Shown here piece by piece: positions 1 through 52,932 of a DNA stretch of 64,000 nucleotides (its first letter is position 1; every line of letters begins with the position of its first letter). Below the pieces are notes generated by a model. That model did not search any database. It worked only from the letters and a program-made list of their open reading frames with translations, and was not told the DNA's origin. Both the position numbers and the translations under genes were made by a program. Location of the stretch: assembly GCA_017506865.1 (NCBI GenBank), contig JAFCMP010000089.1, positions 1 to 64,000 of the forward strand, read 5' to 3'. This DNA is from Tribonema minus. Its lineage: Eukaryota; Sar; Xanthophyceae; Tribonematales; Tribonemataceae.

Positions 1-839
1 ACAGCCGTGGGAAGCGAGTTAAACGTTAATCACGCTAGGTTCCTGCACTAGAATGCTTATGACGGGGCGGCGTAGTGGTGCACCGCTACGTCGTGACCCG
101 CCCCCTGATGTCAACGACGCAGTGCGTGCTGCACGGGTCTGAGCAGCAATGAACATGCAACTTCATTTAGCTGGCCTTATTCTGCGGCTCATCTGTGGTT
201 GATGACGTGGTCACGTGGACCCATATAGGCATCGAGGGTAGACCCGTGCGGTAGCGCGCTGTGTACACCAGCTTGCGCGCCGTACACTATCACGTCACGA
301 ACGCACCAGAGTCTCCCGGGAGAACGCGCGGAGATCCTTTAGGGGGACACGTGATAGCTTGTGTATCAGAAGTCACAGAAACGGTAGTGACTTGTCATAG
401 ACAGTGTTAAGTGGTTGCACTCGAGAAGTCTCGAGAATAAGCGCACAAAGGGCATGCGCTGCCACTTTTCTGGCTGTAACGGTTGCCTATGACTAGAATA
501 AAAACCCTACCGCATGCTCTTCCTTAGTAATTTGCTCTAAAGCTGATATGACTAGCTTTTTGCAAAGAAGGGGGAGAGGAGTCTAGCTTAAGAGCAAAGC
601 GATGCAATTTTGCTTCATGATTGTACGGCCGCAATTGTGTTGCAGAATTGACAACGCGGTCGATCTGTACAACTGCTATGTCAAACTGGCTGGCTTGCAG
701 TTCAGAGTGCCCTAGTAGCATCAGACCTCGTGCAGAGGCGTGTGGGGCATAGACGGCTCGTGCGCTGACAATTTAAAATCATGGTTTTGTCGTCGCACTC
801 AGCTTCATGCGCGTGAATCGTGTGCAGGATACACCATAA
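1..839 (+). other. Retrotransposon leader (5' UTR) of copy 1, partial
   Basis: Non-coding leader between the LTR and the polyprotein ATG. It contains a GC-rich stem-loop at 64-104 and ends with a good 3' splice site (GTGTGCAG just before GATACACC, 12 nt upstream of the ATG). The 65-codon ORF on the opposite strand at 524-721 is present in all three copies only because the copies are nearly identical, and I do not call it a gene. Confidence 0.7.
64..104 (+). promoter_or_regulatory. Stem-loop in the retrotransposon leader (copies at 12622-12662 and 24262-24302)
   Basis: Outer arms GGGGCGG and CCGCCCC enclose an inner near-perfect inverted repeat centred on the self-complementary octamer GGTGCACC. 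The same structure is present in all three copies. Position in the leader downstream of the primer binding site would suit a packaging or dimerisation element, but that role is inference. Confidence 0.45.
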
Positions 840-3800
840 ATGGTCAAGACTGACCATGGCTCCAAGAAGCCAACGAGTGGGTCAAGCCGCAGCGGAGGTG
901 TTAGTGGCGGTGCTAGGCCTGCTGGCAGCACTGCTGCTAAGAGCAACAAGGGCGGTCAGCGCTCCGCTACGCGCCCCGCACCAAGCTCGGGTGACAAGCC
1001 GTCACGCCCCCCTCCCCGGCCCGCGGCAGCGTCCGCACAACCCAGCCAGGTCGGTGCCAGCGCGCCCGACACGTCTGCCTCGGTACGGTCCACAGAATCA
1101 GTAGTCACTGGTGCCGCACCTCCTTTTATACGTAATTTCGCTGAGTCCAGCGACGAGCCCGGCGGTGGCGGCTCAGAAGCCGAAGCCATAGTGGCAAGGC
1201 AGTTACGTTTGAGGCAGAAAAGAGAACAGCTTGCAGCAATGGGCATTATGCTTAGCGAAGCCCAGGTAGCAGAAGGCGAAGAAGCTTTTGCACGTGCAGC
1301 TGTTGAGAAAAAACTCGCACCAACGAAAAGCCCACGCAAGACACCGCGTGCAGCTGCAACAACCGCGCCAGTTGTGCCGGTAGCCGCGCCAGCTGTGCCG
1401 GCAGCGCCCGCGAAGTCTGCGGCGCCAGCACCTGCAAAGTCCACAGTGCCAGTTGCAGCACTGGTTGCGCCCGCGGTGGCCCCACCTAAGGTCGCGCGCA
1501 GTCAGCCGGCCAAGACGTCGGTTACGCGCGGTGCACGGGCCCCAGTTGCGGCGCCTGAAGTAGCACCGGCGGCTCCGACGCCTCAGAGCTCCAAGCCGTC
1601 AGCTAGGCTAGTGGCTCCCACATACTATACTGCACCAGCGAGGGCCCCTGAAGCCTCAGATAAATCGCCTGTGACGCAGCCGCGTCGGGGTGCAAGTGGT
1701 AAGGCGCGGCGTGTGCCAGTTGTGCCACGTAGCGTGCCAGTCGTGCAAAGTTCGCCAGTTGTGCCACGTAGCGCGCCCGTCATACCGCGAAAGCCAGTTG
1801 AGCAACAAGCGGCAGAGCGACGGAGGGCAGTTAGGCAACTGCTCGAGTCTTCTGAGTCATCTGGTGATGAGGGTGGTGTGCCCTTTGATCCTGAGGGCAC
1901 AGATGAGGCTTATGACCAGTGGCGTGAGGGCATCGAAGCTCGCGTCGAGGCACATAAGCGAGCTGCCAAGGCCGCCAAAACGGCTGCAACGTTCGCCGAA
2001 ATTCACGAGCGTGCCCTTTACGAACGCCTTGGCGAGCTCCAGCTTCGCGTCACCAGAGCTCCTAGTGAGAGCAAGAACATGGTGAAGAACTCACTGCTGC
2101 CGATGGCGCGGACGTTCGCTGCGGAGCAGGCCGAAGAGGTGCGCAAGCATAATGTTGCACTTCTGGAAAAACGTGGTCATGACTTCAAAGCTAGCCAGTT
2201 CGGCGAGCTGCTGACCATAGGTGAACACCGTAAGCGGTCCAATAGTTGGCATCGCTTCGCCTTCGGCACAGGCGACGGTGAGGAGGCGGAACTCTGGCGA
2301 ATGCTAAGGGAGTTCGAGAACACGCCTCTGGTCACCGAGGAGGCGCGCCTAGCTGCGGACACTTACCCGCGCAGCTTGGTGACGCACCCGTTCCTCAACA
2401 CTGACGGGCACTCCGACACGTCGGACGACGACGCAGCCGGCGCAGCTGCGAGTCCGCGTGAAGATGGCGCAGTGGCCGGCGTAGCCACCAGCGCATCGGC
2501 TCTAGGTGAGAGCATTAGGACTGCGGGGGCAGTAGAACCCTCGTACTCCTCAGTTGCCATGACGGCGCGGAAACCCAAAGTTGACTTGAGGGGTTTCGGC
2601 GGCACTGGCGTCGTCATTGTAACGCAAGTAGGCAGGCTTGAAGCTTCCATTAGAGCTTTTGAGCGTAGCTGCGACACGCGTGGCGTGCCCAAGTCGGCCT
2701 ACTCAGAAGCGCTGTTGCAGAGTCTGACCAAGAGTCAGTACGCTGATCTGACCAGCGCAGTCACCAATGAGCGCACGGGAATGCTAGAAACTCGTGCGTT
2801 TAGTGATTTGTCTTATGAGCAGATGGTGCAATGCCTTACGGCAGCGTACGATAGCACATCTGCCAGGCAAATAGCACTTCAAAAGTATCATGAACTCACG
2901 CGTACCTCCGGTACCAGCCCCGAAGTGTGGGGCAGGGAGGTAGTTGCAGCCGCGCACGACGCCGGCTGCGCGGACAACCAGCAAATTGTTCGTATGAAGT
3001 TCGTTCATGAACTGCCATTATGCTGCCGTCAAGAAGTAAACGGCATGTATGAGACCTGGGATCTAAAGAACACCGCTTTTCCCAAGGTCGTGGCAACTGC
3101 CCAGCAAAAGTGGCAGGCAGCGCCTATTGACGAGCGCGAGACTCGAAATGTTGTGTCTGCAATGGCCGCGGCACACATCTCAACCCCCCCCTACTCTGAC
3201 ACAGGCAAGCGCCCTGCCAAGGATGGGTGGAGCGTGGTCAGTAACGACCATCGCTATAAAAAGAAGAATAAGCTTTCGGCTGTTCGCGCTGTGTTGGCGG
3301 GGCTGAGCGCTAACGAGCGTCGCCAGCTTGGAGTCAGCGACCGCGCGCCGCAGGGCAAGGCTAGCTCCGCAGGCGATAACGGCGGCGGCGGAGCCAAGCC
3401 CCAGAGCAACTTCAAGTGTCTTGGCTGCAGAGTGAACCAGGGAGACTGGGACACACTTATGCGGCACAAGACTACCTGCCCTCAGTGCATTGCGCACCGA
3501 AAGAGGATGGCAGAAAAGCACCGCCAAGGTGAATCACACTTGCAGTTGTCTGCTGCCTTGGTAGAAAGTGACTTGCCTGCTGCAAGTTCAGCATCAGCAA
3601 TCAGTGAATTGCCTGGTGTAGTTAGAGCAGATGCATGTTCGGCACAGGTAGCTGAGCATGCCACTGACGCTGTTTACGATGTCTCTTTGCGCGCGCAGAT
3701 GGCGGCAATTGAGGGTGGGCCAGAGCCACCACCCAGAGTTATCAAACACGCGTCTATCTGCTGTGGGGCGCTAGGAGGCGCCATAGCTGGGGGTAAGTTG

Positions 3801-6800
3801 ACCTCCAGAGCAGGTTTTGTAACACGCACGGTGCTCGCAGTTGACAAAGACGTCAAGGCAATTGAGGCTCTGCATGAAGTTCATCCAGAAGTGCCCACGC
3901 TCACTGCATGCATCACTGATGCGAAGGTTGTTGCACGTCTCATCGACGAGAAACCTGACGTCACCACCATCTCGCCGCCCTGCACAGATTTTTCTGCGGA
4001 GGGCAAGAAGGTCGAGGGCGAAGCTGCCGAGTGCACGGTCCATGCCGCACGGCTCATCGTGCGGGCCAAGCTTCGGGTGGTGTTGTATGAGAATGTGCCA
4101 GGAGTGCTAGTGTCACGCGCGTTTGCACGCGCAGTACGCATTCTCAAGTCGGCTGGTTACATGCTGTACATTGCCAAGTTAAAGGCTTCTGAGTTTGAAG
4201 TACCTTGCAGGAGGCAGAGGGTGTACATTGTCATAGTACCAGCAGGGGTGGCCTCACGTGAGGCGCTCCAGAGGTTCGGTGCGGTAATAAATACCAAGCG
4301 TTTACAAAGCAGACCCACATCTGTTCGCTCTCGCTTGCGCTGCCCCGAACGCACATTCTTCTTGCAACCACGCAGTGCTCAGCACCCTGGTGTTTTGGAT
4401 GCTGATGGCTTGTTGCCTAGCCCAGTGCGCAGACTGCCTGGTAGGCCCACTGCGAGTTATGTTGCACATGCAAAAGACGCTGGTCCAGTGGCATCTGCCC
4501 GCTTGCTGTCGCTTGCGGAAATGGCAGTGCTCATGACTTATCATCATGAATTACCAGCGAGTGCATGCAGTAGTGATGTACGGCGTTACATTGCAGACTT
4601 GTTCATCCCAGAGATGGCATTTCACTTGTTCGTGGCAATTGAGGCCTCGGGCCTGTGCACACTGCCAGAACAACAGGTACGTTTGCCGCGTAGGTCAGAC
4701 TCTACGTTGAGGCATTCAGTTGACTGCCCGCCCCCGTCTTGGTTGGCTGGTCAGAGTGGTTCGCTGGTGCAGGCCGCTACCGCGGTACACGCAGCGCCCA
4801 CGTCAAGTGCACACTGCTCAGCAGCAGTGGCGCGTAGCATACATGCAAAGGCGCATGATGCAGGGTATGCAGAGGTACCCATAATTCCGATGCGCAGTGC
4901 ATGGGAAGAGCCAGAGGTAGACTTGGCTGTGGTGCAGCCCGGCATGGCTGACATTGTGGAAGTCGATGACTCTGACTCAGGGTCTGACTCTGAGTGGGAC
5001 TCACAGTCAGTTATGAGCGTTTGCAGTAGCGCAGACGACATGGACATTGACACAGAAATCAGTGCTCCACCCATTGCGGCCGCAGCGGCATGCAAGAAGC
5101 TCGGCGGCGGTACAGACCCGCGCCTTGCCCCAGGTGAGTTGAAGGCAGCGCTCAGGCGCGCTGGCCTTGATGCTCAGTCTCTAGGCATATTAGACCATGT
5201 GCCAGGTGTCAGCAAGTTAGACACAGCCCCACCAGTGAGTGTGGCAGAGACAATTAAGAATCTCACAGAAGAGATCACAAAACCGAAGGAACCAGTCAAG
5301 TTACCTCATGTAGGCCTTGCAGTAGGGTCCCCTGAGCCTAGCTCGGTAGAGCGCTCCAAGTCGGAGGCTCCAGTGGAGTACATACGCCCAGTAGCCGGTG
5401 TTGTACCTCCAGGGCAGATGTTTGTGTCCGCGTCGTTACGCGTACAAAGCAACTCTCAGACGCCCAAAGAACTCTATGTGCGCGCCATGGTAGACTGCGG
5501 TGCGACCGTAACCATCATGGGCAAGCGCATTGCAGACAAGCTCCCCAACAGCTATGTATGTACACCTCAGCAAGGTGACTACACTGAGATCCTCTTGGCA
5601 GACGGCAAGACGTCGCTGCAGATCAGTGGTGTGGTCAATGCATGGCTGCGGTTTAAGAACAAGATGTTCTTGCACAAGTTCTATGTGGTGAACGCACCCA
5701 TGGACGTGCTCTTAGGTACGGATTTCTTTGCCCCGCATGGCTCAGTCATCTCATATCACGGCGGTAGCCCAGCCTTCTTCCCAGGGGGACTAAAAGGTGT
5801 GGCCATACGCCCCATGCACGACAAGAATCGCGCAGACAACGCGAACGCGCGTGCGGCAGCACTAGCCAGTTGCAAGGGCAATGGCAGCGCTGAGAGCACT
5901 GAGGCACCAGACAAGCCTCAGCAGTGCTCAGCTAGGATGGCATATAACACTGTACTGGCACCATCGTCGGAGACGATTGTGGAACTCACGCTGCTACCAA
6001 AGCCAAAGCGCGTGCAGCCCTATGAGGCATTGCTCATACCAGAAGAGACAGTGACTACAGAAATGATGAGAGGCAAAGGTGTTAAGGCAAATATCACCGC
6101 TCTCACCGTAAATGCCAGCGGCACGATATACGCTACATTGAGCAACACTTCAATGTACCCGGTTTACGTGCGCCGCAACACGTATTGGGGAAAAGTGACT
6201 CCAATTAAGGCTGATGATCTGCTAGAAGTGCAGACAGCTACTCAGCAGGCTCTAGAAGCCAAACTGCTAGTAATAGCAGCCAAAAGGCACTCTGAAAATG
6301 CTAAGTTAGTGGCAGAATTAGCTGCTAGCATAGGCAAGACTGCCAAAGAGGTTGCACAAGAAGTGCAACGGCTGGCAGACCTTAGCCAGCGCCACAATGA
6401 CCAGCTAGAAAACTGCACGGATGCAGAGCTGGAGGAAATCCTTGTGAAAGATGGCAGGCTTGCGCCTCATTTGCAAGGAAGGGGGAAAGATGGGGTACTT
6501 TTAAAAACAAAAGCACTTGACATGCTAAAAAAGCACAGGAATGTCTTTGCTAAGGACCCTAAAAACCCTCGAGTCACTCAGCATTTTGAGATTGATGTTG
6601 ACACTCAGACGGCCGAGCCGGTGGCGGACAAGGCACGCCATTGGGCTTTCAAAGAAGCCGAGTACATCATGAAACAGATTCAGATGATGGCAAAGCGCCA
6701 ACAGATTGAGCCATCAGCTAGTGCGTGGGCAAGCAACCCAGTACTAGTGGTTCAAGGCGACAAGATCCGCTTCTGCATAGACTTCAGGAAGTTGAATGCG

Positions 6801-9800
6801 GTCACGAAGCGTGATAGTCATGGCTTAGGCAACATGGATGACATGATGCGGGCTGTGCAAGGTGCCAGGATTTTATCTTCGTTAGATCTGGCAGCGGGTT
6901 ACCATCAGATCCCGCTGGCCAAGACGGCTAAGGCCAAGACGGCCTTCAGAGCCCCAGACGGCTCGTTGTGGCACTACAAGGTGGCGCCATTCGGGCTGGT
7001 GAACTTGCCAGCGCAGTTCGCGAGATTGATGCACCAAGTGCTGGGAGATGCCTTAGGCTCCCACGCGCTAGTGTACATAGATGACGTGTTGGTGTATGGC
7101 ACGGACATCGAGGAGCACATCGAGCAGTTAGATGATGTTCTTGGCCGCATAGGCGCGGCGGGCATGAGTGTATCTCGCCCAAAGTGTCAGCTGTTTCAAG
7201 CTGAAGTCAAGTTCCTAGGCCATATAGTTGGCGCCGCTGGAACAAGACCAGACCCTGACAAGGTCAAGGCCATGCTTGACATGAGCCCCCCACTGAAAGG
7301 CGGGGTACCAGACAAGCAGTTGGTACAAGTGGTTATGGGAGTGTTTAACTATTACAGGCGATATGTACCCAACTTTGGGGCGATATCAGAGCCTATAGTA
7401 GCCCTGACCAAGAACAAAGCAGTCATGGTTTGGGGGTCTGCGCAGGAGCGGGCTTTCAAGCGGCTGAAGAGTGCCATGTGCGACAGTCGCATAGTGATGC
7501 ACCCAGATTTCAGTTTGCCTTTCGTATTGTACACCGACGCCTCCAAGACGGCGACGGCAGGTGTGCTTACACAGTTCAGACCTGTGAGTGAGGTCGAAAG
7601 GGCAACAGCGGGACAGCCATATGCTCACACGGGCAGGCGCCGCATAGCTGAAGGCGAGGAGGTCAGAGAAGTAGTCGTTGGCTACTTCAGCAAGCTGAAC
7701 TCTGAACCCAACGCGAAGTTAGGAGCGACGGCAGTAGAGTGTCTGGCAGTAGTGCTGGCGCTCAACCACTTCAGGCCTTACATTTGGGGTAACCCCGTTA
7801 CAGTGGTCACAGATGCCGCTGCGCTCAGGTGGCTGTTGACGTTACAAGACTACAACGGCAAGCTACTAAGATGGGCCATGCGCATACAGGAGTATGACGT
7901 TACCATTCAGCACAGGCCTGGCAAAAGGAATGCCAATGCTGATGCCCCATCCAGGCTGCCACAGCAGGCAGAGTTAGATGCTGAGCGCTCTACGGAGCCA
8001 GCAGACGAACAGTGGCCAGACGCAGTCCCGAGCATGGACGCACCGCCGTCAGGTGTGCGCTTTGCGGACGAGGCCACGAGAACGCACAAAGTGGCCGACG
8101 TGAACAGCTGTCGTGGGTACACGGCGGACGCACGTTACGGGCCAGCGTTCAAGTTCAACGAGGCCGTCGCCATATCAGGCGTAGTGGCCGCTAGGTTAGC
8201 CGCTCTGACAGCTGTGGAGCTAGCGCAGTTGTTGGACAGAAGGCTAGATGACTCCACGGTGGAGGAAGCTGAGGTTGATGAAGTTGAGATCAACACAGCG
8301 TACGCAGAGCCAGTCAATAAGTACACCGGCTCGTGGGAGCATTCCCAAGCGCAGCGACTCTTAAGGCAGATCGCATGCGACAGGCGACGCAGCATCAGCT
8401 CAAAGAGGGCCAAGTGCAGCGTCACCACGGCTCAGCCGGCGGCAGACTCATTGGAAGAAGGAGAGATTCCAGAGGTAGAAGCTGCTGCTGATGCAGATGA
8501 GGCAGATGAGCCACCGGATGGCGAAGCTGTTTTAGGCAAGCGCAAGAAGACGCTGCCAAGGCCAGAAGTAGTGCAGTTGCTGAAACGGGTGGCCGAGGGA
8601 GACTCGCCTGCCACGCCAGCAATGCTCAGCAGAGCCGCATTTCTTGAAGTTCAGAAAGCGGACGGTTTCTGTCAAGCAGTGAGCAAGATGCTCATTGAGG
8701 GTGACATACCCGAAGGCGCGGAGCTAGCCGCTCACGTCTTAGCACAGAGAGAGCAGTATACCATCGAGGAAGATGGCCTCTTAGTGCACAGTTCAACGAG
8801 CCACCCCAAGAGAGGTATGGTGTTGTTGCAGTGGGTCGTGCCAGTGGTGCTACGAACCCTAGTCATGCGTCTAGGGCATGATGACGCAAGCGCTATGCAT
8901 TGCGGCATAGGCGCTACGCACACGCGTATATTCGAGAGGTATTTCTGGCCTGGTATGGGCGCGGACATACGAACGTACGTGCAGAGCTGCATGACATGCC
9001 TCGAGCGCAAACGCGCCAGCTCCACTCAGTACAGACAGTGGTTAGCTGAGCCCGTGCGTATGTGGCAGCGGCTCAACATAGATATCACAGAGCCTGGTAT
9101 ACAGTCCACGGCAGGGCACAGATATGTCCTGACCATAGTGGAAGCAAGGTCCGGCTTCGTGTGGCTCTCGGCCATGCACGGCCAGGGAACGCGCGATGTT
9201 ACCCCGCACCTCATGACAGTGTTCCTTGAGGTTGGAGCATTAGTGGAGGAACTATGCTCAGACAAGGGCAAAGTCTTCCTTGGCAATGTGGTCAGTGACC
9301 TTTGCAGAGCGTTTAAAGTTAAACGCATAGAGACCAGTGCATACCACCCACAGACCAATGGTGTGGCAGAACATGCAAATGGTCGTGCTAAGAAGGCACT
9401 AGCATCTTGGGTCAGCGCTCAGCAGATAAACTGGCACGAAGGCTTAGAGCTCGTACAGTTTGTGTTGAGGACAACTCCCCGAGATGAAACAGGTTTAACA
9501 CCCTTTTTCTGTGTGTACGGTCGGGAAGCTTCACTGCCACATGATGCATTTATGCACGAGGATGGCAGCAGGAAGTTGGACCTACACGAAGAGATTGAGC
9601 ACAAGTTAGATATGCTTGAGCTTGCAGACAAGGTGGTGTCAAAGGCGCTGCAAGTACGCGCCCAGAAGATCACCAAGCGCAATGAAGCTATTAAGCGCGC
9701 GGTGAAGTTCGCCGTCGGTGACTATGTCATGATACGGCTACCCAGGCAAAGAGACAGGTCGGCTGCTCTTGATGCCAGGTATGTGGGGCCTTGGCAGATC

Positions 9801-10841
9801 GAGGCTCGCACAGGCGAATCAGGCCTCTCATTCATCTGCAGGATGATGGGCAGAAGAGTTAGACACACCACAGCTCATGTTGAGAACATGAAGCCCTTCC
9901 ACATGAGGCCTAGTGCCATGTTGGAGCCAGGTGTGCACGCCATGCTGAGCCCCCGACAAGTGGAGGAGCTAGCGGATGGTGAGAAGTTATACAGAGTTCT
10001 AGACCGCCAAGCGGGCCCCAATGGCTCGTGGCAGTACAAATGGCAGTCCATAGATGGCAAGTCACATGCGTGGGTGTCAGAAGATGACATGCTGCAAGAA
10101 GTGACGCCACGGACCTTAGACGCTTTTCACGCGCTCTATGAGCTGCGCAACGAAGGAAGGTTGCCAGCATATGCTATCAGGCCCACACCCAAGGAGGATG
10201 CTGGCATGCGCCGAGAGAGCGCGCTGCAACTCTATCCCATCGGCACAGCGCTGGTCAGGGAGCACAGAGCGGTGGTGGGCGGCCCAATCACTTACGTGTG
10301 GGGGGCCGTGAAGAACTTTGTGTCACCGTACTGGAGGATCAGATATGAAGATGGTGAGTGGGAACAGATGACCCGTACACAGGTCAAGTCTGCCATACAG
10401 TTGGCAGAGGCGGTGCGTAACAAAGCCAAGAGGTTGCAGGCGCAAAGTGCGCCGGACAGCGCGAGTAGTGCAAGTCCCAACTCTCAGGTCACGCGAGGTC
10501 TGCCACCTTCCCAAACTAGTTCTGAGGCAAGCTCAGCCCAAGATTCTGCTCAGCCGCAGATCTCGCTGGTAAGGCTGCCCAAACTGCCATCTGATTTCGG
10601 ATCAGACTTTGAGGGTGAAGTGATCTGGTATCACTTTCCAACAGGCTGGAGCCGCGGCGTCCTGGGTGAGTTTTACCCCGCCAGGTCGCAGTTCACGTTT
10701 GATGTACTATTCGACGGTGAGAAGACTGTCAGGCGTATGCGCTTACGTCCGGGTGACTACCGCACGCCAAAAGACAGCCCATACTCATCATGGAACGTGC
10801 TCGCCGCTCGCAGTATATCCTCAGAGGAGAGTGCGAAGTAG
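840..10841 (+). CDS. Gag-DNMT-Pol polyprotein, intact, 3333 aa
   Basis: The ATG at 840 directly follows an in-frame TAA (837-839), which fixes the start. Residues 1-400 are Ala/Pro/Ser-rich and probably disordered. Residues about 580-765 resemble a Gag capsid. A Cys/His finger follows (C860, C863, H876, C880, C883, H886). A C5 cytosine methyltransferase spans about 966-1290 (catalytic C1048). The protease has VDCGAT at D1552 and LLGTDFF near 1624. The reverse transcriptase (about 1915-2130) has D2016 in SLDLAAGYHQIP and YIDD with D2081 and D2082. RNase H (about 2225-2370) shows D2233, E2300 and D2325. Integrase has H2680, H2687, C2717, C2720 and the triad D2748, D2808, E2844 (DD35E). A chromodomain-like stretch lies near 3045-3095, and SH3/Tudor-like stretches near 3135-3182 and 3258-3308. 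Gag and Pol are one frame with no programmed shift visible, so processing must rest on the protease. Family membership is secure; the tail domains are inferred from pattern only. Confidence 0.95.
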   Translation: MVKTDHGSKKPTSGSSRSGGVSGGARPAGSTAAKSNKGGQRSATRPAPSSGDKPSRPPPRPAAASAQPSQVGASAPDTSASVRSTESVVTGAAPPFIRNFAESSDEPGGGGSEAEAIVARQLRLRQKREQLAAMGIMLSEAQVAEGEEAFARAAVEKKLAPTKSPRKTPRAAATTAPVVPVAAPAVPAAPAKSAAPAPAKSTVPVAALVAPAVAPPKVARSQPAKTSVTRGARAPVAAPEVAPAAPTPQSSKPSARLVAPTYYTAPARAPEASDKSPVTQPRRGASGKARRVPVVPRSVPVVQSSPVVPRSAPVIPRKPVEQQAAERRRAVRQLLESSESSGDEGGVPFDPEGTDEAYDQWREGIEARVEAHKRAAKAAKTAATFAEIHERALYERLGELQLRVTRAPSESKNMVKNSLLPMARTFAAEQAEEVRKHNVALLEKRGHDFKASQFGELLTIGEHRKRSNSWHRFAFGTGDGEEAELWRMLREFENTPLVTEEARLAADTYPRSLVTHPFLNTDGHSDTSDDDAAGAAASPREDGAVAGVATSASALGESIRTAGAVEPSYSSVAMTARKPKVDLRGFGGTGVVIVTQVGRLEASIRAFERSCDTRGVPKSAYSEALLQSLTKSQYADLTSAVTNERTGMLETRAFSDLSYEQMVQCLTAAYDSTSARQIALQKYHELTRTSGTSPEVWGREVVAAAHDAGCADNQQIVRMKFVHELPLCCRQEVNGMYETWDLKNTAFPKVVATAQQKWQAAPIDERETRNVVSAMAAAHISTPPYSDTGKRPAKDGWSVVSNDHRYKKKNKLSAVRAVLAGLSANERRQLGVSDRAPQGKASSAGDNGGGGAKPQSNFKCLGCRVNQGDWDTLMRHKTTCPQCIAHRKRMAEKHRQGESHLQLSAALVESDLPAASSASAISELPGVVRADACSAQVAEHATDAVYDVSLRAQMAAIEGGPEPPPRVIKHASICCGALGGAIAGGKLTSRAGFVTRTVLAVDKDVKAIEALHEVHPEVPTLTACITDAKVVARLIDEKPDVTTISPPCTDFSAEGKKVEGEAAECTVHAARLIVRAKLRVVLYENVPGVLVSRAFARAVRILKSAGYMLYIAKLKASEFEVPCRRQRVYIVIVPAGVASREALQRFGAVINTKRLQSRPTSVRSRLRCPERTFFLQPRSAQHPGVLDADGLLPSPVRRLPGRPTASYVAHAKDAGPVASARLLSLAEMAVLMTYHHELPASACSSDVRRYIADLFIPEMAFHLFVAIEASGLCTLPEQQVRLPRRSDSTLRHSVDCPPPSWLAGQSGSLVQAATAVHAAPTSSAHCSAAVARSIHAKAHDAGYAEVPIIPMRSAWEEPEVDLAVVQPGMADIVEVDDSDSGSDSEWDSQSVMSVCSSADDMDIDTEISAPPIAAAAACKKLGGGTDPRLAPGELKAALRRAGLDAQSLGILDHVPGVSKLDTAPPVSVAETIKNLTEEITKPKEPVKLPHVGLAVGSPEPSSVERSKSEAPVEYIRPVAGVVPPGQMFVSASLRVQSNSQTPKELYVRAMVDCGATVTIMGKRIADKLPNSYVCTPQQGDYTEILLADGKTSLQISGVVNAWLRFKNKMFLHKFYVVNAPMDVLLGTDFFAPHGSVISYHGGSPAFFPGGLKGVAIRPMHDKNRADNANARAAALASCKGNGSAESTEAPDKPQQCSARMAYNTVLAPSSETIVELTLLPKPKRVQPYEALLIPEETVTTEMMRGKGVKANITALTVNASGTIYATLSNTSMYPVYVRRNTYWGKVTPIKADDLLEVQTATQQALEAKLLVIAAKRHSENAKLVAELAASIGKTAKEVAQEVQRLADLSQRHNDQLENCTDAELEEILVKDGRLAPHLQGRGKDGVLLKTKALDMLKKHRNVFAKDPKNPRVTQHFEIDVDTQTAEPVADKARHWAFKEAEYIMKQIQMMAKRQQIEPSASAWASNPVLVVQGDKIRFCIDFRKLNAVTKRDSHGLGNMDDMMRAVQGARILSSLDLAAGYHQIPLAKTAKAKTAFRAPDGSLWHYKVAPFGLVNLPAQFARLMHQVLGDALGSHALVYIDDVLVYGTDIEEHIEQLDDVLGRIGAAGMSVSRPKCQLFQAEVKFLGHIVGAAGTRPDPDKVKAMLDMSPPLKGGVPDKQLVQVVMGVFNYYRRYVPNFGAISEPIVALTKNKAVMVWGSAQERAFKRLKSAMCDSRIVMHPDFSLPFVLYTDASKTATAGVLTQFRPVSEVERATAGQPYAHTGRRRIAEGEEVREVVVGYFSKLNSEPNAKLGATAVECLAVVLALNHFRPYIWGNPVTVVTDAAALRWLLTLQDYNGKLLRWAMRIQEYDVTIQHRPGKRNANADAPSRLPQQAELDAERSTEPADEQWPDAVPSMDAPPSGVRFADEATRTHKVADVNSCRGYTADARYGPAFKFNEAVAISGVVAARLAALTAVELAQLLDRRLDDSTVEEAEVDEVEINTAYAEPVNKYTGSWEHSQAQRLLRQIACDRRRSISSKRAKCSVTTAQPAADSLEEGEIPEVEAAADADEADEPPDGEAVLGKRKKTLPRPEVVQLLKRVAEGDSPATPAMLSRAAFLEVQKADGFCQAVSKMLIEGDIPEGAELAAHVLAQREQYTIEEDGLLVHSSTSHPKRGMVLLQWVVPVVLRTLVMRLGHDDASAMHCGIGATHTRIFERYFWPGMGADIRTYVQSCMTCLERKRASSTQYRQWLAEPVRMWQRLNIDITEPGIQSTAGHRYVLTIVEARSGFVWLSAMHGQGTRDVTPHLMTVFLEVGALVEELCSDKGKVFLGNVVSDLCRAFKVKRIETSAYHPQTNGVAEHANGRAKKALASWVSAQQINWHEGLELVQFVLRTTPRDETGLTPFFCVYGREASLPHDAFMHEDGSRKLDLHEEIEHKLDMLELADKVVSKALQVRAQKITKRNEAIKRAVKFAVGDYVMIRLPRQRDRSAALDARYVGPWQIEARTGESGLSFICRMMGRRVRHTTAHVENMKPFHMRPSAMLEPGVHAMLSPRQVEELADGEKLYRVLDRQAGPNGSWQYKWQSIDGKSHAWVSEDDMLQEVTPRTLDAFHALYELRNEGRLPAYAIRPTPKEDAGMRRESALQLYPIGTALVREHRAVVGGPITYVWGAVKNFVSPYWRIRYEDGEWEQMTRTQVKSAIQLAEAVRNKAKRLQAQSAPDSASSASPNSQVTRGLPPSQTSSEASSAQDSAQPQISLVRLPKLPSDFGSDFEGEVIWYHFPTGWSRGVLGEFYPARSQFTFDVLFDGEKTVRRMRLRPGDYRTPKDSPYSSWNVLAARSISSEESAK
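3735..4704 (+). other. C5 cytosine DNA methyltransferase domain inside the copy 1 polyprotein
   Basis: This part of the polyprotein (about residues 966-1290) has the conserved motifs of C5 methyltransferases in canonical order. Motif I is CCGALGGAIAGG at 974-985 (S-adenosylmethionine site). An acidic VLAVDKD follows. Motif IV is ISPPCTDFS with the catalytic cysteine C1048. Motif VI is YENVPGV with E1084. Motif VIII is CRRQRVYIV at 1123-1131. Motif IX begins at R1221 (RLLSLAEMAVL) and is followed by a motif X-like helix. A target recognition region fits between VIII and IX. Known chemistry of the family is methyl transfer to C5 of cytosine in DNA. Sequence specificity cannot be read here. It sits between the Gag zinc finger and the protease, so it would be made as part of Gag-Pol and could act in the particle or in the nucleus on the element's own DNA. 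All catalytic motifs are present, so activity is plausible. Confidence 0.92.
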
Positions 10842-11083
10842 TTGTGGGGACTCAAGTTGAGTCAAAGCTGAGGCCGGCGACTCCCTTTTCCTGCAGAGAG
10901 GATTTCCCTGACTAGCAGGTTTGCCTCCCAGGTTTTTAATGGGGTTTCCAACCAGTTCTATATTGGCCTCCATGCTTAGTAGTGCACTTAGTGCGAGCAT
11001 GCTGCAACTACACTAGGGACCGCGATCTGCTGCTTCGAGTTCAAGTCCGCATCGAGGGCGATGCTCAGCAAAGAAGGGGGATC
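10842..11083 (+). other. 3' UTR and polypurine tract, copy 1
   Basis: About 240 nt without a long ORF between the polyprotein stop (TAG, 10839-10841) and the 3' LTR. It ends in the purine run AAAGAAGGGGGA (11070-11081), which directly abuts the LTR and is the expected plus-strand primer. The same run is at 23629-23640 in copy 2. Confidence 0.85.
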
Positions 11084-11496
11084 TGATACGGCTTGGGGGT
11101 GTATTCAGACAGTTACAGGCAGTTACACCTCACAGGTTGGCACAGGTCTCAGTAGACCTGTGTAGTCGGTGTAGACCTTGACATGTGATTGAGAGCTGGC
11201 CTGACCTTAGTTGAAGGCAGGTGCAACTAGTTGGGTCACATGCCAAAGGGCACATCAAAGTAGTATGCACAGCATCAGAACCCCCCCTGCAAGCAGCAAG
11301 CCCGAACCTTGCTGTGCCAGCCATCGTCCAGCCCCAAGCCTTCCGTCTCTCAGCAGCAGAATAAAATATCCGGTAAGCGCATCGCGTTTCCTTTCGCATA
11401 ACATTTCATTTGAGTTCTCTGAAGCGTGTCTACTTGTTTTGCTCTTCCAGCTTGCTTGTTTGCATTCATGACAGCATCACAAGGTAAGCCGCTTCA
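11084..11496 (+). repeat. 3' LTR of copy 1 (413 bp)
   Basis: Starts TGATACGG and ends CTTCA, so it has the usual TG...CA ends. The boundaries come from alignment with the other two LTR copies: similarity starts after the polypurine tract and stops at CTTCAAT. It contains AATAAA at 11360-11365, a perfect hairpin near its start (CACAGGTCT/AGACCTGTG), and two GTAAGC motifs that could be 5' splice sites, the second 4 nt after an ATG-containing stretch at the LTR end. Confidence 0.92.
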
Positions 11497-12002
11497 ATAG
11501 CAACGTATATTAATTGGCCAAAATCTGAAGACAACCTCCGATTGAATTTTTTTTTCTTTACGCACAACAGTGTCAATCTTCAAGAGTTTAGAACACTCGT
11601 CGTACTCTACTAGTTCAACCATACCTGGAAATTAGCAGCATTGCCACTTGTTCAACTTTGCTGCCATACCAAACAACCAGCATTAATGTATGCACCCACG
11701 CATTCAGTGTATGCGCCTTGAGCTCCAGATTTCAACAGGATGCCAGCCTTGTTCTTGTGAATAAATAATGCACAAACAGTGGTGCTGCACATGTCATGGC
11801 ATAGCAAGTGCCAATGCACACGGTCAGACTCAGGTGCATCACAGTCAGTCACCAGCAGCAGTTCAAACACCAAGTATGTGTCAGTCCATGCAATGCAGTG
11901 CATGCTCAACATGCTTTAATCCATCTCAACAGTACTGTTCACCAGGCACCCAGCAAAATGACTGTAGTTCGTACAAACTGAACCATTTTCCGTCTGTCCT
12001 GT
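11497..12002. other. 506-bp spacer between retrotransposon copies 1 and 2
   Basis: AT-richer than its surroundings and not repeated elsewhere in the window. I see no recognisable gene. An 86-codon open frame on the - strand (11652-11912) lacks recognisable motifs. No clear target-site duplication can be matched across the elements because the partner flanks lie outside the window or are lost. Confidence 0.6.
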
Positions 12003-12415
12003 TGATACGGCTTGGGGGTGTATTCAGACAGTTACAGGCAGTTACACCTCACAGGTTGGCACAGGTCTCAGTAGACCTGTGTAGTCGGTGTAGACCTTGA
12101 CATGTGATTGAGAGCTGGCCTGACCTTAGTTGAAGGCAGGTGCAACTAGTTGGGTCACATGCCAAAGGGCACATCAAAGTAGCATGCACAGCATCAGAAC
12201 CTCCCCTGCAAGCAGCAAGCCCGAACCTTGCTGTGCCAGCCATCGTCCAGCCCCAAGCCTTCCGTCTCTCAGCAGCAGAATAAAATATCCGGTAAGCGCA
12301 TCGCGTTTCCTTTCGCATAACATTTCATTTGAGTTCTCTGAAGCGTGTCTACTTGTTTTGCTCTTCCAGCTTGCTTGTTTGCATTCATGACAGCATCACA
12401 AGGTAAGCCGCTTCA
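12003..12415 (+). repeat. 5' LTR of copy 2 (413 bp)
   Basis: TGATACGG...CTTCA, matching the LTRs at 11084 and 23643. AATAAA lies at 12279-12284. The perfect hairpin CACAGGTCT-CAGT-AGACCTGTG is at 12060-12081. The ATG at 12387 near the 3' end opens a 66-codon frame that runs across the primer binding site. Confidence 0.93.
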
Positions 12416-12587
12416 ATTTGGCACCCGAAGACAGTCCTTACCTCGTGCTAACCCCGCCCGCAAGGGCAGCAGCGTGGTGATCGCTGTTCAATGTATCACT
12501 GCTCGAATCGTGTCAAAGCCTTTCGAGGACCCAGATTACGTAAAGCGATACGTAAAGAACAGCCGTGGGAAGCGACTTAAACGTTAA
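12387..12587 (+). CDS. Short basic leader ORF in retrotransposon copy 2 (66 codons), doubtful gene
   Basis: An ATG near the 3' end of the 5' LTR opens a frame that crosses the LTR/leader border and the primer binding site and ends TAA at 12585-12587. The product would be small and basic with a Lys/Arg-rich end (GKRLKR). Copy 3 carries the same frame at 24027-24227, which says little because the copies are so young. It could be an upstream ORF in the unspliced RNA, a short leader peptide, or chance. I recognise no domain. Confidence 0.25.
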   Translation: MTASQGKPLQFGTRRQSLPRANPARKGSSVVIAVQCITARIVSKPFEDPDYVKRYVKNSRGKRLKR

Positions 12588-13391
12588 TCACGCTAGGTTC
12601 CTGCACTAGAATGCTTATGACGGGGCGGCGTAGTGGTGCACCGCTACGTCGTGACCCGCCCCCTTGATGTCAACGACGCAGTGCGTGCTGCACGGGTCTG
12701 AGCAGCAATGAACATGCAACTTCATTTAGCTGGCCTTATTCTGCGGCTCATCTGTGGTTGATGAACGTGGTCACGTGGACCCATACAGGGCATCGAGGGT
12801 AGACCCGTGCGGTAGCGCGCTGTGTACACCAGCTTGCGCGCCGTACACTATCACGTCACGAACGCACCAGAGTCTCCCGGGAGAACGCGCGGAGATCCTT
12901 TAGGGGGGGACACGTGATAGCTTGTGTATCAGAAGTCACAGAAACGGTAGTGACTTGTCATAGACAGTGTTAAGTGGTTGCACTCGAGAAGTCTCGAGAA
13001 TAAGCGCACAAAGGGGCATGCGCTGCCACTTTTCTGGCTGTAACGGTTGCCTATGACTAGAATAAAAACCCTACCGCATGCTCTTCCTTAGTAATTTGCT
13101 CTAAAGCTGATATGACTAGCTTTTTGCAAAGAAGGGGGAGAGGAGTCTAGCTTAAGAGCAAAGCGATGCAATTTTGCTTCATGATTGTACGGCCGCAATT
13201 GTGTTGCAGAATTGACAACGCGGTCGATCTGTACAACTGCTATGTCAAACTGGCTGGCTTGCAGTTCAGAGTGCCCTAGTAGCATCAGACCTCGTGCAGA
13301 GGCGTGCGGGGCATAGACGGCTCGTGCGCTGACAATTTAAAATCATGGTTTTGTCGTCGCACTCAGCTTCATGCGCGTGAATCGTGTGCAG
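12403..13391 (+). other. Candidate leader intron of copy 2
   Basis: A strong donor (AAG/GTAAGC, exon ends 12402) lies at the end of the LTR, and an acceptor (GTGTGCAG, exon resumes at 13392) lies 12 nt before the polyprotein ATG at 13404. Splicing would remove the primer binding site and nearly the whole leader with its upstream ATGs, giving a subgenomic mRNA, while unspliced RNA would serve as genome. The same signals are in copy 3. This is inferred from splice-site form only. Confidence 0.45.
12419..12434 (+). promoter_or_regulatory. Primer binding site of copy 2 (also 24059-24074 in copy 3)
   Basis: TGGCACCCGAAGACAG lies 3 nt after the LTR end. The leading TGG is the complement of a tRNA CCA 3' end, and position and form are those of a minus-strand primer site. 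Which tRNA pairs cannot be decided without the host tRNA set. Confidence 0.8.
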
Positions 13392-13403
13392 GATACACCA
13401 TAA

Positions 13404-16400
13404 ATGGTCAAGACTGACCATGGCTCCAAGAAGCCAACGAGTGGGTCAAGCCGCAGCGGAGGTGTTAGTGGCGGTGCTAGGCCTGCTGGCAGCACTGCTG
13501 CTAAGAGCAACAAGGGCGGTCAGCGCTCCGCTACGCGCCCCGCGCCAAGCTCGGGTGACAAGCCGTCGAGCCCCCCTCCCCGGCCCGCGGCAGCGTCCGC
13601 ACAACCCAGCCAGGTCGGTGCCAGCGCGCCCGACACGTCTGCCTCGGTACGGTCCACAGAATCAGTAGTCACTGGTGCCGCACCTCCTTTTATACGTAAT
13701 TTCGCTGAGTCCAGCGACGAGCCCGGCGGTGGCGGCTCAGAAGCCGAAGCCATAGTGGCAAGGCAGTTACGTTTGAGGCAGAAAAGAGAACAGCTTGCAG
13801 CAATGGGCATTATGCTTAGCGAAGCCCAGGTAGCAGAAGGCGAAGAAGCTTTTGCACATGCAGCTGTTGAGAAAAAACTCGCACCAACGAAAAGCCCACG
13901 CAAGACACCGCGTGCAGCTGCAACAACCGCGCCAGTTGTGCCGGTAGCCGCGCCAGCTGTGCCGGCAGCGCCCGCGAAGTCTGCGGCGCCAGCACCTGCA
14001 AAGTCCACAGTGCCAGTTGCAGCACTGGTTGCGCCCACGGTGGCCCCACCTAAGGTCGCGCGCAGTCAGCCGGCCAAGACGTCGGTTACGCGCGGTGCAC
14101 GGGCCCCAGTTGCGGCGCCTGAAGTAGCACCGGCGGCTCCGACGCCTCAGAGCTCCAAGCCGTCAGCTAGGCTAGTGGCTCCCACATACTATACTGCACC
14201 AGCGAGGGCCCCTGAAGCCTCAGATAAATCGCCTGTGACGCAGCCGCGTCGGGGTGCAAGTGGTAAGGCGCGGCGTGTGCCAGTTGTGCCACGTAGCGTG
14301 CCAGTCGTGCAAAGTGCGCCAGTTGTGCCACGTAGCGCGCCCGTCATACCGCGAAAGCCAGTTGAGCAACAAGCGGCAGAGCGACGGAGGGCAGTTAGGC
14401 AACTGCTCGAGTCTTCTGAGTCATCTGGTGATGAGGGTGGTGTGCCCTTTGATCCTGAGGGCACAGATGAGGCTTATGACCAGTGGCGTGAGGGCATCGA
14501 AGCTCGCGTCGAGGCACATCAGCGAGCTGCCAAGGCCGCCAAAACGGCTGCAACGTTCGCCGAAATTCACGAGCGTGCCCTTTACGAACGCCTTGGCGAG
14601 CTCCAGCTTCGCGTCACCAGAGCTCCTAGTGAGAGCAAGAACATGGTGAAGAACTCACTGCTGCCGATGGCGCGGACGTTCGCTGCGGAGCAGGCCGAAG
14701 AGGTGCGCAAGCATAATGTTGCACTTCTGGAAAAACGTGGTCATGACTTCAAAGCTAGCCAGTTCGGCGAGCTGCTGACCATAGGTGAACACCGTAAGCG
14801 GTCCAATAGTTGGCATCGCTTCGCCTTCGGCACAGGCGACGGTGAGGAGGCGGAACTCTGGCGAATGCTAAGGGAGTTCGAGAACACGCCTCTGGTCACC
14901 GAGGAGGCGCGCCTAGCTGCGGACACTTACCCGCGCAGCCTGGTGACGCACCCGTTCCTCAACACTGACGGGCACTCCGACACGTCGGACGACGACGCAG
15001 CCGGCGCAGCTGCGAGTCCGCGTGAAGATGGCGCAGTGGCCGGCGTAGCCACCAGCGCATCGGCTCTAGGTGAGAGCATTAGGACTGCGGGGGCAGTAGA
15101 ACCCTCGTACTCCTCAGTTGCCATGACGGCGCGGAAACCAAAAGTTGACTTGAGGGGTTTCGGCGGCACTGGCGTCGTCATTGTAACGCAAGTAGGCAGG
15201 CTTGAAGCTTCCATTAGAGCTTTTGAGCGTAGCTGCGACACGCGTGGCGTGCCCAAGTCAGCCTACTCAGAAGCGCTGTTGCAGAGTCTGACCAAGAGTC
15301 AGTACGCTGATCTGACCAGCGCAGTCACCAATGAGCGCACGGGAATGCTAGAAACTCGTGCGTTTAGTGATTTGTCTTATGAGCAGATGGTGCAATGCCT
15401 TACGGCAGCGTACGATAGCACATCTGCCAGGCAAATAGCACTTCAAAAGTATCATGAACTCACGCGTACCTCCGGTACCAGCCCCGAAGTGTGGGGCAGG
15501 GAGGTAGTTGTAGCCGCGCACGACGCCGGCTGCGCGGACAACCAGCAAATTGTTCGTATGAAGTTCGTTCATGAACTGCCATTATGCTGCCGTCAAGAAG
15601 TAAACGGCATGTATGAGACCTGGGATCTAAAGAACACCGCTTTTCCCAAGGTCGTGGCAACTGCCCAGCAAAAGTGGCAGGCAGCGCCTATTGACGAGCG
15701 CGAGACTCGAAATGTTGTGTCTGCAATGGCCGCGGCACACATCTCAACCCCCCCTACTCTGACACAGGCAAGCGCCCTGCCAAGGATGGGTGGAGCGTGG
15801 TCAGTAACGACCATCGCTATAAAAAGAAGAATAAGCTTTCGGCTGTTCGCGCTGTGTTGGCGGGGCTGAGCGCTAACGAGCGTCGCCAGCTTGGAGTCAG
15901 CGACCGCGCGCCGCAGGGCAAGGCTAGCTCCGCAGGCGATAACGGCGGCGGCGGAGCCAAGCCCCAGAGCAACTTCAAGTGTCTTGGCTGCAGAGTGAAC
16001 CAGGGAGACTGGGACACACTTATGCGGCACAAGACTACCTGCCCTCAGTGCATTGCGCACCGAAAGAGGATGGCAGAAAAGCACCGCCAAGGTGAATCAC
16101 ACTTGCAGTTGTCTGCTGCCTTGGTAGAAAGTGACTTGCCTGCTGCAAGTTCAGCATCAGCAATCAGTGAATTGCCTGGTGTAGTTAGAGCAGATGCATG
16201 TTCGGCACAGGTAGCTGAGCATGCCACTGACGCTGTTTACGATGTCTCTTTGCGCGCGCAGATGGCGGCAATTGAGGGTGGGCCAGAGCCACCACCCAGA
16301 GTTATCAAACACGCGTCTATCTGCTGTGGGGCGCTAGGAGGCGCCATAGCTGGGGGTAAGTTGACCTCCAGAGCAGGTTTTGTAACACGCACGGTGCTCG

Positions 16401-19400
16401 CAGTTGACAAAGACGTCAAGGCAATTGAGGCTCTGCATGAAGTTCATCCAGAAGTGCCCACGCTCACTGCATGCATCACTGATGCGAAGGTTGTTGCACG
16501 TCTCATCGACGAGAAACCTGACGTCACCACCATCTCGCCGCCCTGCACAGATTTTTCTGCGGAGGGCAAGAAGGTCGAGGGCGAAGCTGCCGAGTGCACG
16601 GTCCATGCCGCACGGCTCATCGTGCGGGCCAAGCTTCGGGTGGTGTTGTATGAGAATGTGCCAGGAGTGCTAGTGTCACGCGCGTTTGCACGCGCAGTAC
16701 GCATTCTCAAGTCGGCTGGTTACATGCTGTACATTGCCAAGTTAAAGGCTTCTGAGTTTGAAGTACCTTGCAGGAGGCAGAGGGTGTACATTGTCATAGT
16801 ACCAGCAGGGGTGGCCTCACGTGAGGCGCTCCAGAGGTTCGGTGCGGTAATAAATACCAAGCGTTTACAAAGCAGACCCACATCTGTTCGCTCTCGCTTG
16901 CGCTGCCCCGAACGCACATTCTTCTTGCAACCACGCAGTGCTCAGCACCCTGGTGTTTTGGATGCTGATGGCTTGTTGCCTAGCCCAGTGCGCAGACTGC
17001 CTGGTAGGCCCACTGCGAGTTATGTTGCACATGCAAAAGACGCTGGTCCAGTGGCATCTGCCCGCTTGCTGTCGCTTGCGGAAATGGCAGTGCTCATGAC
17101 TTATCATCATGAATTACCAGCGAGTGCATGCAGTAGTGATGTACGGCGTTACATTGCAGACTTGTTCATCCCAGAGATGGCATTTCACTTGTTCGTGGCA
17201 ATTGAGGCCTCGGGCCTGTGCACACTGCCAGAACAACAGGTACGTTTGCCGCGTAGGTCAGACTCTACGTTGAGGCATTCAGTTGACTGCCCGCCCCCGT
17301 CTTGGTTGGCTGGTCAGAGTGGTTCGCTGGTGCAGGCCGCTACCGCGGTACACGCAGCGCCCACGTCAAGTGCACACTGCTCAGCAGCAGTGGCGCGTAG
17401 CATACATGCAAAGGCGCATGATGCAGGGTATGCAGAGGTACCCATAATTCCGATGCGCAGTGCATGGGAAGAGCCAGAGGTAGACTTGGCTGTGGTGCAG
17501 CCCGGCATGGCTGACATCGTGGAAGTCGATGACTCTGACTCAGGGTCTGACTCTGAGTGGGACTCACAGTCAGTTATGAGCGTTTGCAGTAGCGCAGACG
17601 ACATGGACATTGACACAGAAATCAGTGCTCCACCCATTGCGGCCGCAGCGGCACGCAAGAAGCTCGGCGGCGGTACAGACCGCCTTGCCCCAGGTGAGTT
17701 GAAGGCAGCGCTCAGGCGCGCTGGCCTTGATGCTCAGTCTCTAGGCATATTAGACCATGTGCCAGGTGTCAGCAAGTTAGACACAGCCCCACCAGTGAGT
17801 GTGGCAGAGACAATTAAGAATCTCACAGAAGAGATCACAAAACCGAAGGAACCAGTCAAGTTACCTCATGTAGGCCTTGCAGTAGGGTCCCCTGAGCCTA
17901 GCTCGGTAGAGCGCTCCAAGTCGGAGGCTCCAGTGGAGTACATACGCCCAGTAGCCGGTGTTGTACCTCCAGGGCAGATGTTTGTGTCCGCGTCGTTACG
18001 CGTACAAAGCAACTCTCAGACGCCCAAAGAACTCTATGTGCGCGCCATGGTAGACTGCGGTGCGACCGTAACCATCATGGGCAAGCGCATTGCAGACAAG
18101 CTCCCCAACAGCTATGTATGTACACCTCAGCAAGGTGACTACACTGAGATCCTCTTGGCAGACGGCAAGACGTCGCTGCAGATCAGTGGTGTGGTCAATG
18201 CATGGCTGCGGTTTAAGAACAAGATGTTCTTGCACAAGTTCTATGTGGTGAACGCACCCATGGACGTACTCTTAGGTACGGATTTCTTTGCCCCGCATGG
18301 CTCAGTCATCTCGTATCACGGCGGTAGCCCAGCCTTCTTCCCAGGGGGACTAAAAGGTGTGGCCATACGCCCCATGCACGACAAGAATCGCGCAGACAAC
18401 GCGAACGCGCGTGCGGCAGCACTAGCCAGTTGCAAGGGCAATGGCAGCGCTGAGAGCACTGAGGCACCAGACAAGCCTCAGCAGTGCTCAGCTAGGATGG
18501 CATATAACACTGTACTGGCACCATCGTCGGAGACGATTGTGGAACTCACGCTGCTACCAAAGCCAAAGCGCGTGCAGCCCTATGAGGCATTGCTCATACC
18601 AGAAGAGACAGTGACTACAGAAATGATGAGAGGCAAAGGTGTTAAGGCAAATATCACCGCTCTCACCGTAAATGCCAGCGGCACGATATACGCTACATTG
18701 AGCAACACTTCAATGTACCCGGTTTACGTGCGCCGCAACACGTATTGGGGAAAAGTGACTCCAATTAAGGCTGATGATCTGCTAGAAGTGCAGACAGCTA
18801 CTCAGCAGGCTCTAGAAGCCAAACTGCTAGTAATAGCAGCCAAAAGGCACTCTGAAAATGCTAAGTTAGAGGCAGAATTAGCTGCTAGCATAGGCAAGAC
18901 TGCCAAAGAGGTTGCACAAGAAGTGCAACGGCTGGCAGACCTTAGCCAGCGCCACAATGACCAGCTAGAAAACTGCACGGATGCAGAGCTGGAGGAAATC
19001 CTTGTGAAAGATGGCAGGCTTGCGCCTCATTTGCAAGGAAGGGGGAAAGATGGGGTACTTTTAAAAACAAAAGCACTTGACATGCTAAAAAAGCACAGGA
19101 ATGTCTTTGCTAAGGACCCTAAAAACCCTCGAGTCACTCAGCATTTGAGATTGATGTTGACACTCAGACGGCCGAGCCGGTGGCGGACAAGGCACGCCAT
19201 TGGGCTTTCAAAGAAGCCGAGTACATCATGAAACAGATTCAGATGATGGCAAAGCGCCAACAGATTGAGCCATCAGCTAGTGCGTGGGCAAGCAACCCAG
19301 TACTAGTGGTTCAAGGCGACAAGATCCGCTTCTGCATAGACTTCAGGAAGTTGAATGCGGTCACGAAGCGTGATAGTCATGGCTTAGGCAACATGGATGA

Positions 19401-23400: not shown

Positions 23401-23642
23401 TTGTGGGGACTCAAGTTGAGTCAAAGCTGAGGCCGGCGACTCCCTTTTCCTGCAGAGAGGATTTCCCTGACTAGCAGGTTTGCCTCCCAGGTTTTTAATG
23501 GGGTTTCCAACCAGTTCTATATTGGCCTCCATGCTTAGTAGTGCACTTAGTGCGAGCATGCTGCAACTACACTAGGGACCGCGATCTGCTGCTTCGAGTT
23601 CAAGTCCGCATCGAGGGCGATGCTCAGCAAAGAAGGGGGATC

Positions 23643-30115: not shown

Positions 30116-30512
30116 AACAAGATTCTTTGCATCGCCAACACCTGGGCACACATGTCGATGGCCGGCGGCGTTACGCCGGCAGCGAACTCTGCACTGTGGC
30201 TGCGCATTGTGCCCCATTATGTCAGTGCGCAAAACCAGCACACTCTTGACCAGTGTGTATGCAGAAAATGCTGCAAGACGTGTAGGCTAGACGGTGGTGG
30301 CACAGCAAATGGGGCAACTGCATGTGGTTAGGCACTTCGTGCAGCTAAGCTGGCAATGCCTTGAGCAAACACAGGCGATGGCGACATCTTGACGTCACTG
30401 GCAGTCAAGACACCAATGAAGAAAAACAAGCAGGCATCACAACATCAGAGAGGCAGTGGCTGATTGCAGCACATGCAAATGCGGCATACCAACACCGTGG
30501 TGCCGAACGTCT

Positions 30513-52319: not shown

Positions 52320-52932
<613 letters not shown>

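Follow-up and report, generated by a model that had tools for sequence, protein, structure and literature searches.

Introduction

DNA methylation is ordinarily directed at retrotransposons, and an element that bears its own DNA methyltransferase (MTase) therefore inverts the expected conflict. What might such an enzyme do for the element, and where did it come from? The question is raised by the first 64,000 nucleotides (forward strand) of contig JAFCMP010000089.1 from the xanthophyte alga Tribonema minus (GenBank assembly GCA_017506865.1), the whole of which is hereafter called the window. Judged from its sequence, the first element in the window is a Ty3/gypsy long terminal repeat (LTR) retrotransposon encoding a predicted C5 cytosine DNA MTase in its polyprotein. 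A first-pass annotation of the DNA letters had proposed as much, and profile, structure and copy-family comparisons all bear it out.

The methyltransferase domain and its element

The domain, at 3735-4703, translates without a stop and matches PF00145 (DNA_methylase) at 5e-19, scoring 69.3 bits against a cut-off of 22 in a search that could have placed it outside the C5 MTases. The translation contains, in canonical order, ICCGALGG, SPPC, ENV, RRQR, LSLAEMAVLMT and ADLFIPEM, which we take to be motifs I, IV, VI, VIII, IX-like and X-like, in agreement with the first reading of the locus; the catalytic cysteine is C1048 of the open reading frame (ORF), or C83 of the domain, and the glutamate of ENV is E1084. 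Comparison of the predicted structure likewise supports a C5 MTase fold, the top match overall being a phage C5 MTase (5.1e-23, template modeling score 0.77).

The features of the window's elements are as follows.

1-11498, + strand: Ty3 element A, aligned to 12559-24057 at 99.05%
840-10841, + strand: Gag-MTase-Pol polyprotein, uninterrupted ORF of 3333 aa
3735-4703, + strand: C5 cytosine MTase domain, PF00145 above cut-off
5478-5729, + strand: aspartic protease domain (Pfam gag-asp_proteas, 7.8e-5, 23.6 bits, below the cut-off of 28.2)
6759-7229, + strand: reverse transcriptase (RT; Pfam RVT_1, 5e-27)
7431-7895, + strand: RNase H (RT_RNaseH_2, 6.9e-13; RT_RNaseH, 3e-14; two scanned pieces)
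8838-9350, + strand: integrase, H2C2 zinc-binding domain and core (Integrase_H2C2, 5.9e-17; rve, 1.1e-5, 26.1 bits, below the Pfam cut-off of 32.6)
10299-10388, + strand: possible, weak Tudor-like domain at the C-terminus (PF21743, 0.012, below cut-off)
11070-11080, + strand: purine tract 5' of the element A 3' LTR, found by eye
11084-11498, + strand: element A 3' LTR, 415 bp, with 2 and 3 mismatches against the other two LTRs
12003-24057, + strand: element B with both LTRs (12003-12417 and 23643-24057, 1 mismatch)
12419-12430, + strand: primer-binding-site-like stretch starting TGG, 3' of the element B 5' LTR, found by eye
16298-17266, + strand: element B MTase domain, its protein 100% identical to that of element A
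23643-27260, + strand: fragment C, ending within Gag, a 99.9% match to 12003-15620

The order protease-RT-RNase H-integrase in one polyprotein, with integrase last, is that of Ty3/gypsy elements and recurs in related loci; direct LTRs, a primer-binding site and a polypurine tract (the latter two recognized by eye) are present as well. The continuous 3333-codon frame described in the first-pass annotation proved uninterrupted, and the protease does follow the MTase as described there. The Gag zinc finger that was said to precede the domain found no such support: the Pfam scan of residues 1-965 gave no zinc knuckle and no other family, and a Cys/His stretch around residue 860 departs from CX2CX4HX4C, the usual zinc knuckle pattern.

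From the direct repeats and alignments, the window holds element A, a 504-bp gap, element B and fragment C. The three 415-bp direct repeats (11084-11498, 12003-12417 and 23643-24057) differ from one another at 1-3 sites, and the last of them is common to element B and fragment C. The 5' LTR of element A lies off the contig, since the window begins at contig base 1, and the coding region of element B is broken into ORFs at 13404-15869, 15797-19231 and 19180-23400. Target-site duplications were sought at three places: one LTR is common to B and C, telomere repeats cut the 3' LTR of a copy on contig C64, and on C34 the LTR ends were missed. The C64 copy (C64:341950-342110 and 354000-354160; L217, L218) belongs to the window family; its truncated 3' LTR abuts TTAGGG telomere repeats, and its 5' LTR is preceded by the purine tract of another element, a head-to-tail array like that of B and C. 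A 30-base TTAGGG pattern has 2303 + 3123 matches in the genome, some of them interstitial.

A standing part of the element

The genome searched comprises 158 Mb in 554 contigs, and match counts are lower bounds, as the candidates scored were 124 of 443 for the domain, 131 of 553 for RT and 123 of 378 for PF00145. The window domain has at least 126 genome matches, with identities from 100% down to 39%, which is more than chance would explain; among full-length matches at ≥92% identity, 32 of 33 have no internal stop. Of these matches, 20 loci were selected, whose MTases share 38-53% or 87% identity with that of the window. RT lies downstream on the same strand in 19 of the 20, a protease match in between in 18, and integrase downstream in 17. 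Conversely, the 132 RT matches listed include 101 with an MTase 0.5-6 kb upstream in the same orientation; by RT identity to the window, these are 43/51 at ≥92%, 9/23 at 66-72%, 38/43 at 60-65% and 11/15 at 58-59%. The MTase is a standing part of this whole RT clade. That it might be a free-standing host gene rather than part of the element was also considered, and conflicts with the RT linkage.

Three copies depart from the usual pattern. L020 (C507:594814-604813) is the one locus of the 20 with no Pol match: its MTase, which is of the L019 family, sits in a 2270-aa frame in which no protease, RT or integrase was detected, and 529, 720 and 706 residues around it match no Pfam family; this is perhaps a non-autonomous derivative. 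Around an MTase and RT of a 39% family at C311:3913-7380, the open frame runs to 6208 aa, about twice the usual length, perhaps representing two elements in frame. Finally, L003 (C511:970253-974221) has 341-357 site differences to seven copies whose mutual differences number 6-38, and its MTase protein is nonetheless 99.7% identical; it may be a recombinant that has a different Gag or linker.

Selection and residue conservation

Ratios of nonsynonymous to synonymous substitution rates (dN/dS) were obtained from Nei-Gojobori counts. Between the window and two relatives (L028 / L027), the MTase gives 0.143 / 0.138 (dS 0.56, 0.57), RT 0.059 / 0.031, integrase 0.052 / 0.048 and the Gag N-terminus 0.317 / 0.313; the L009, L014 and L016 pairs give 0.137-0.228 for the MTase. 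Many distant pairs are saturated in RT, and three near-identical pairs are too close for use, with one of the near-identical pairs (L014/L025) yielding an MTase value of 0.91 on very few changes. From these values, the MTase is under purifying selection, though looser than that on RT. All 28 loci compared retain the catalytic PC, the glutamate of ENV and the R.R of motif VIII; within this set, L022 reads ENL, L004 has one stop, and L025 and L026 are incomplete.

Other methyltransferase types and the origin of the enzyme

The PF00145 profile has at least 123 matches in the genome. By our grouping, 20 further places comprise one more of the window type, type 1 (L039), as well as type 2 (four places), type 3 (five), type 4 (three) and type 5 (three; its motif IV is altered to TAPC or TSSC, with the cysteine retained), together with three free-standing MTases (L029-L031) and one exon (L032) that is DNMT2-like by motif. 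Types 2-5 were each read further through one representative (L130, L129, L131 and L132, respectively). Types 2, 3 and 4 lie upstream of RTs 31-35% identical to that of the window, and type 5 upstream of an RT 58% identical; the type 3 and type 5 representatives have a complete RT-RNase H-integrase set. By RT, types 1 and 5 form one group, types 2 and 3 another (63% mutual identity) and type 4 a third, so that three very divergent Ty3 RT clades of a single genome carry MTases.

A 48-row MTase tree recovers types 1, 4 and 5 together (99/95) and types 2 and 3 together (100/99), and the groupings by MTase and by RT are consistent where the two can be compared. Both MTase groups join two metagenome proteins, P0026 and P0029, in a 19-row group (100/98). 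Support for all element MTases as a single group is only 63/13, and a single capture is therefore neither shown nor rejected. The tree should be read with caution, its branches being long, that of type 4 above all; the eukaryotic DNMTs in it are a DNMT1 fragment and the DNMT2-like exon, and its prokaryotic label is a guess for mostly unnamed proteins, 19 taken from 120 listed.

When 139 proteins, none of them by name a eukaryotic DNMT, are ranked with a profile built from nine type-1 domains, the scores are 135 bits for P0026, 113 for type 4, 110 for P0029, 89 for type 2 and 63.5 for type 3, with the next unrelated proteins at 73 bits or less. The pattern PPC[TQ]DFS..GK[KR].EG is common to P0026, P0029 and type 1, as is a PSP[TV] pattern in the target-recognition region. 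P0026 matches 371 plasmid records (best 46% over 65% of P0026), and one of its 12 plasmid matches listed is annotated as a HindV modification methylase. The window domain itself matches 27 plasmid records, the best at 32% (Rhizobium) and then at 28% in plasmid genes of the kind matched by P0026, including a HindV annotation. By name, the closest relatives of P0026 are M.HindV-like bacterial C5 MTases, which also rank among the window domain's best plasmid matches, but they are free-standing plasmid genes of low identity to it; tree group and profile ranking both point toward an M.HindV-like assignment, at identities of 23-29% and with M.HindV itself outside the tree. Type 2/3 queries find bacterial loci 25-35% identical (best 80 of 449).

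Viral sequences were also searched. Relatives of type 1 occur in 130 IMG/VR stretches (24-33% over part of the domain for the best 80 of 130), and a type 2/3 query found no relative in 51 IMG/VR stretches. Of nine relatives picked, one (L050, 36 aa) was dropped, and the eight in the tree form a separate group (100/100), which sets them apart from the element MTases and led us to reject a viral origin from this source. Four phage records match the window domain, the best at 26.7%; a phage source is nonetheless conceivable, because the top structural match is a phage MTase. Taken together, these comparisons are best read as a source of bacterial or phage type, in contrast to the earlier published captures of Dnmt3.

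The free-standing C5 MTases L029, L030 (both C223) and L031 (C181) occupy frames of 367-390 aa, and the best PDB match of L029 is M.HhaI (3.6e-17). In all three, a GNSVVP motif unusually stands ahead of a distal PT...MGYP motif. Other sequences of the genome agree with a xanthophyte near Tribonema as the likely host: an rbcL fragment (L133) matches chains that we take to be Rubisco of the red-type form ID, LHC exons match antenna chains of the chlorophyll a/c kind, and P0040, a hypothetical protein from Tribonema minus, includes the start of a type-2 MTase (86% over 25%).

Proposed role and alternative explanations

We favor, at a probability of roughly 0.55, a Ty3/gypsy polyprotein that carries a complete, selected MTase of M.HindV-like type between Gag and protease, acquired before the RT clade split into families of 58-72% RT identity to the window, and methylating the element's own cDNA or insertion. 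The protease would release the MTase inside the particle, where it would be packed with RT; using S-adenosylmethionine and Cys1048, it would deposit 5-methylcytosine (5mC) on double-stranded cDNA or on the fresh insertion. The methylated copy could then pass as self, resist nucleases or sensors, or gain a set chromatin state. An MTase of their own may, in this manner, let elements mark their own DNA copies. Tribonema minus is reported to have DNMT5, HELLS, a putative CDCA7 and a DNMT4-clade protein (PMC10538959), and because of this set the host probably handles 5mC. A bolder extension, which we hold only tentatively and at less than even odds, is that, on one or more occasions in the distant past, xanthophyte Ty3 elements acquired a C5 methylase of the bacterial modification type, that it became, in its place between Gag and protease, a standard virion enzyme acting on their own cDNA across several deeply split clades, and that its target-recognition regions have since diversified.

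Several observations weigh against self-methylation by such an enzyme. The PF00145 match spans only residues 7-167 of 323. Among the RT matches listed, 31 of 132 are without a linked MTase, which in those cases may be absent, damaged or among the candidates left unscored. CpG is not depleted in the interiors of A, B and C (observed/expected 0.82, 0.81 and 1.02, against 0.78 and 0.75 in host stretches); the LTR does have a CpG ratio of 0.46, but the adjoining 504-bp gap also stands at 0.43. Counted over eight copies, transitions affect 37 of 524 bases in CpG and 71 of 1711 C or G bases elsewhere (odds ratio 1.75, p 0.01), a difference dominated by the divergent L003. No methylation was seen in yeast with either the KnitGypsy-Dnmt3 or the SymbioLINE domain, a result that the authors of that work call inconclusive (PMC5890265). 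Lastly, eukaryotic DNMT2s are the closest solved structures to the profile in sequence (3.6e-10, then 1.4e-9).

This last point bears on an unlikely alternative, in which the MTase acts in DNMT2 fashion on RNA (that of the element, or its tRNA primer) rather than on DNA, and the location of the enzyme on the Gag, or RNA-binding, side of the polyprotein would suit it. The CFT motif characteristic of DNMT2 is absent from the window domain, although DNMT2 chains top its PDB list.

It is also improbable, though conceivable, that the MTase works on chromatin at or after insertion together with a C-terminal Tudor-like reader, silencing or restraining the element and sparing the host. Matches to the Tudor-like PF21743 improve to 4.3e-5 in L009, and a Tudor-bearing Gypsy of Ectocarpus has a homologue in Tribonema minus (PMC12477816); but all PF21743 matches are below cut-off, the AlphaFold model of the tail is poor (pLDDT, the predicted local distance difference test score, 40), and the element interiors show no loss of CpG. 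A C-terminal chromodomain had been suspected by eye; Pfam gave none.

A derivation from a host DNMT (Dnmt1, Dnmt3 or other), with a bacterial look produced by fast evolution, is more doubtful still. The published Gypsy and DIRS captures are of Dnmt3 (PMC5890265), the best PDB matches of a type-2 member are DNMT1 chains (4.2e-7), and both the long branches and the sparse eukaryotic DNMTs of the tree and ranking leave room for it. Yet PDB searches returned no chain named Dnmt3 among 23 distinct sequences for type 1 (E up to 0.01) or 29 for type 2 (E up to 0.001), and the element MTases group firmly with P0026 and P0029. Least credible is a passenger domain, or one that no longer methylates and fills some other role (e.g., a structural one): the altered motifs X (ADLFIPEM) and, in type 5, IV, and a dN/dS two to four times that of RT, are outweighed by the invariant catalytic residues, the purifying selection and the scarcity of stops described above.

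Other features of the window

A long CTG/CAG triplet tract at 52178-53092 has open frames on both strands. What is probably a minus-strand gene is present in four related copies (30480-31900, 37500-38900, 46300-47770 and 55280-56720), 65-89% alike in DNA, and the ORF of one of them (46310-47773) has no Pfam match.

Relation to known elements and significance

Precedents in dinoflagellates and a charophyte, noted in the first-pass annotation, agree with PMC5890265, on which the following comparisons draw. KnitGypsy-Dnmt3 of the charophyte Klebsormidium nitens is likewise a Gypsy element with a C5 MTase in its polyprotein, intronless, multicopy and under purifying selection; it is Dnmt3-related, with the enzyme in the Pol polyprotein, and has DIRS-like repeats (PMC5890265). 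The Tribonema element differs in showing no Dnmt3 affinity in the PDB searches above, in the placement of its MTase between Gag and protease, in its probably xanthophyte host, and in the occurrence of MTases in three RT clades; a DIRS-like repeat arrangement was not found in element B, which is flanked on either side by simple direct LTRs. The Symbiodinium elements SymbioDIRS-Dnmt3 and SymbioLINE-Dnmt are also high-copy retrotransposons with intact MTase domains, for which congruent RT and MTase trees are reported, but they are DIRS and LINE (long interspersed nuclear element) rather than LTR/Ty3 elements, with MTases of Dnmt3 or an orphan lineage; SymbioDIRS-Dnmt3 domains methylate CG in yeast (PMC5890265). 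Gypsy-10_Ec32 of Ectocarpus is, like the present element, a stramenopile Gypsy, with a C-terminal Tudor domain; its Tribonema minus homologue may belong to the window clade. The accessible portion of that report mentions no C5 MTase in it, and describes a NADAR domain in another Gypsy lineage (PMC12477816). A search of titles and the starts of abstracts, with subscription journals thinly covered, found no C5 MTase in a Ty3 element of a xanthophyte or other stramenopile.

Retrotransposon C5 MTases are thus already known; what appears to be new here, on the sequence evidence, is a bacterial-type variant, broader in extent than the first-pass annotation saw. If the elements do modify their own DNA, they would represent a eukaryotic counterpart of phage self-modification. 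The presence of an apparently bacterial-type MTase in three divergent Ty3 clades, under selection where tested, suggests a recurrent benefit. Whether self-methylation aids retrotransposition was left open by the earlier work (PMC5890265), and MTase types 1-5, together with the RT relatives that have no linked MTase, offer natural replicates for this question.

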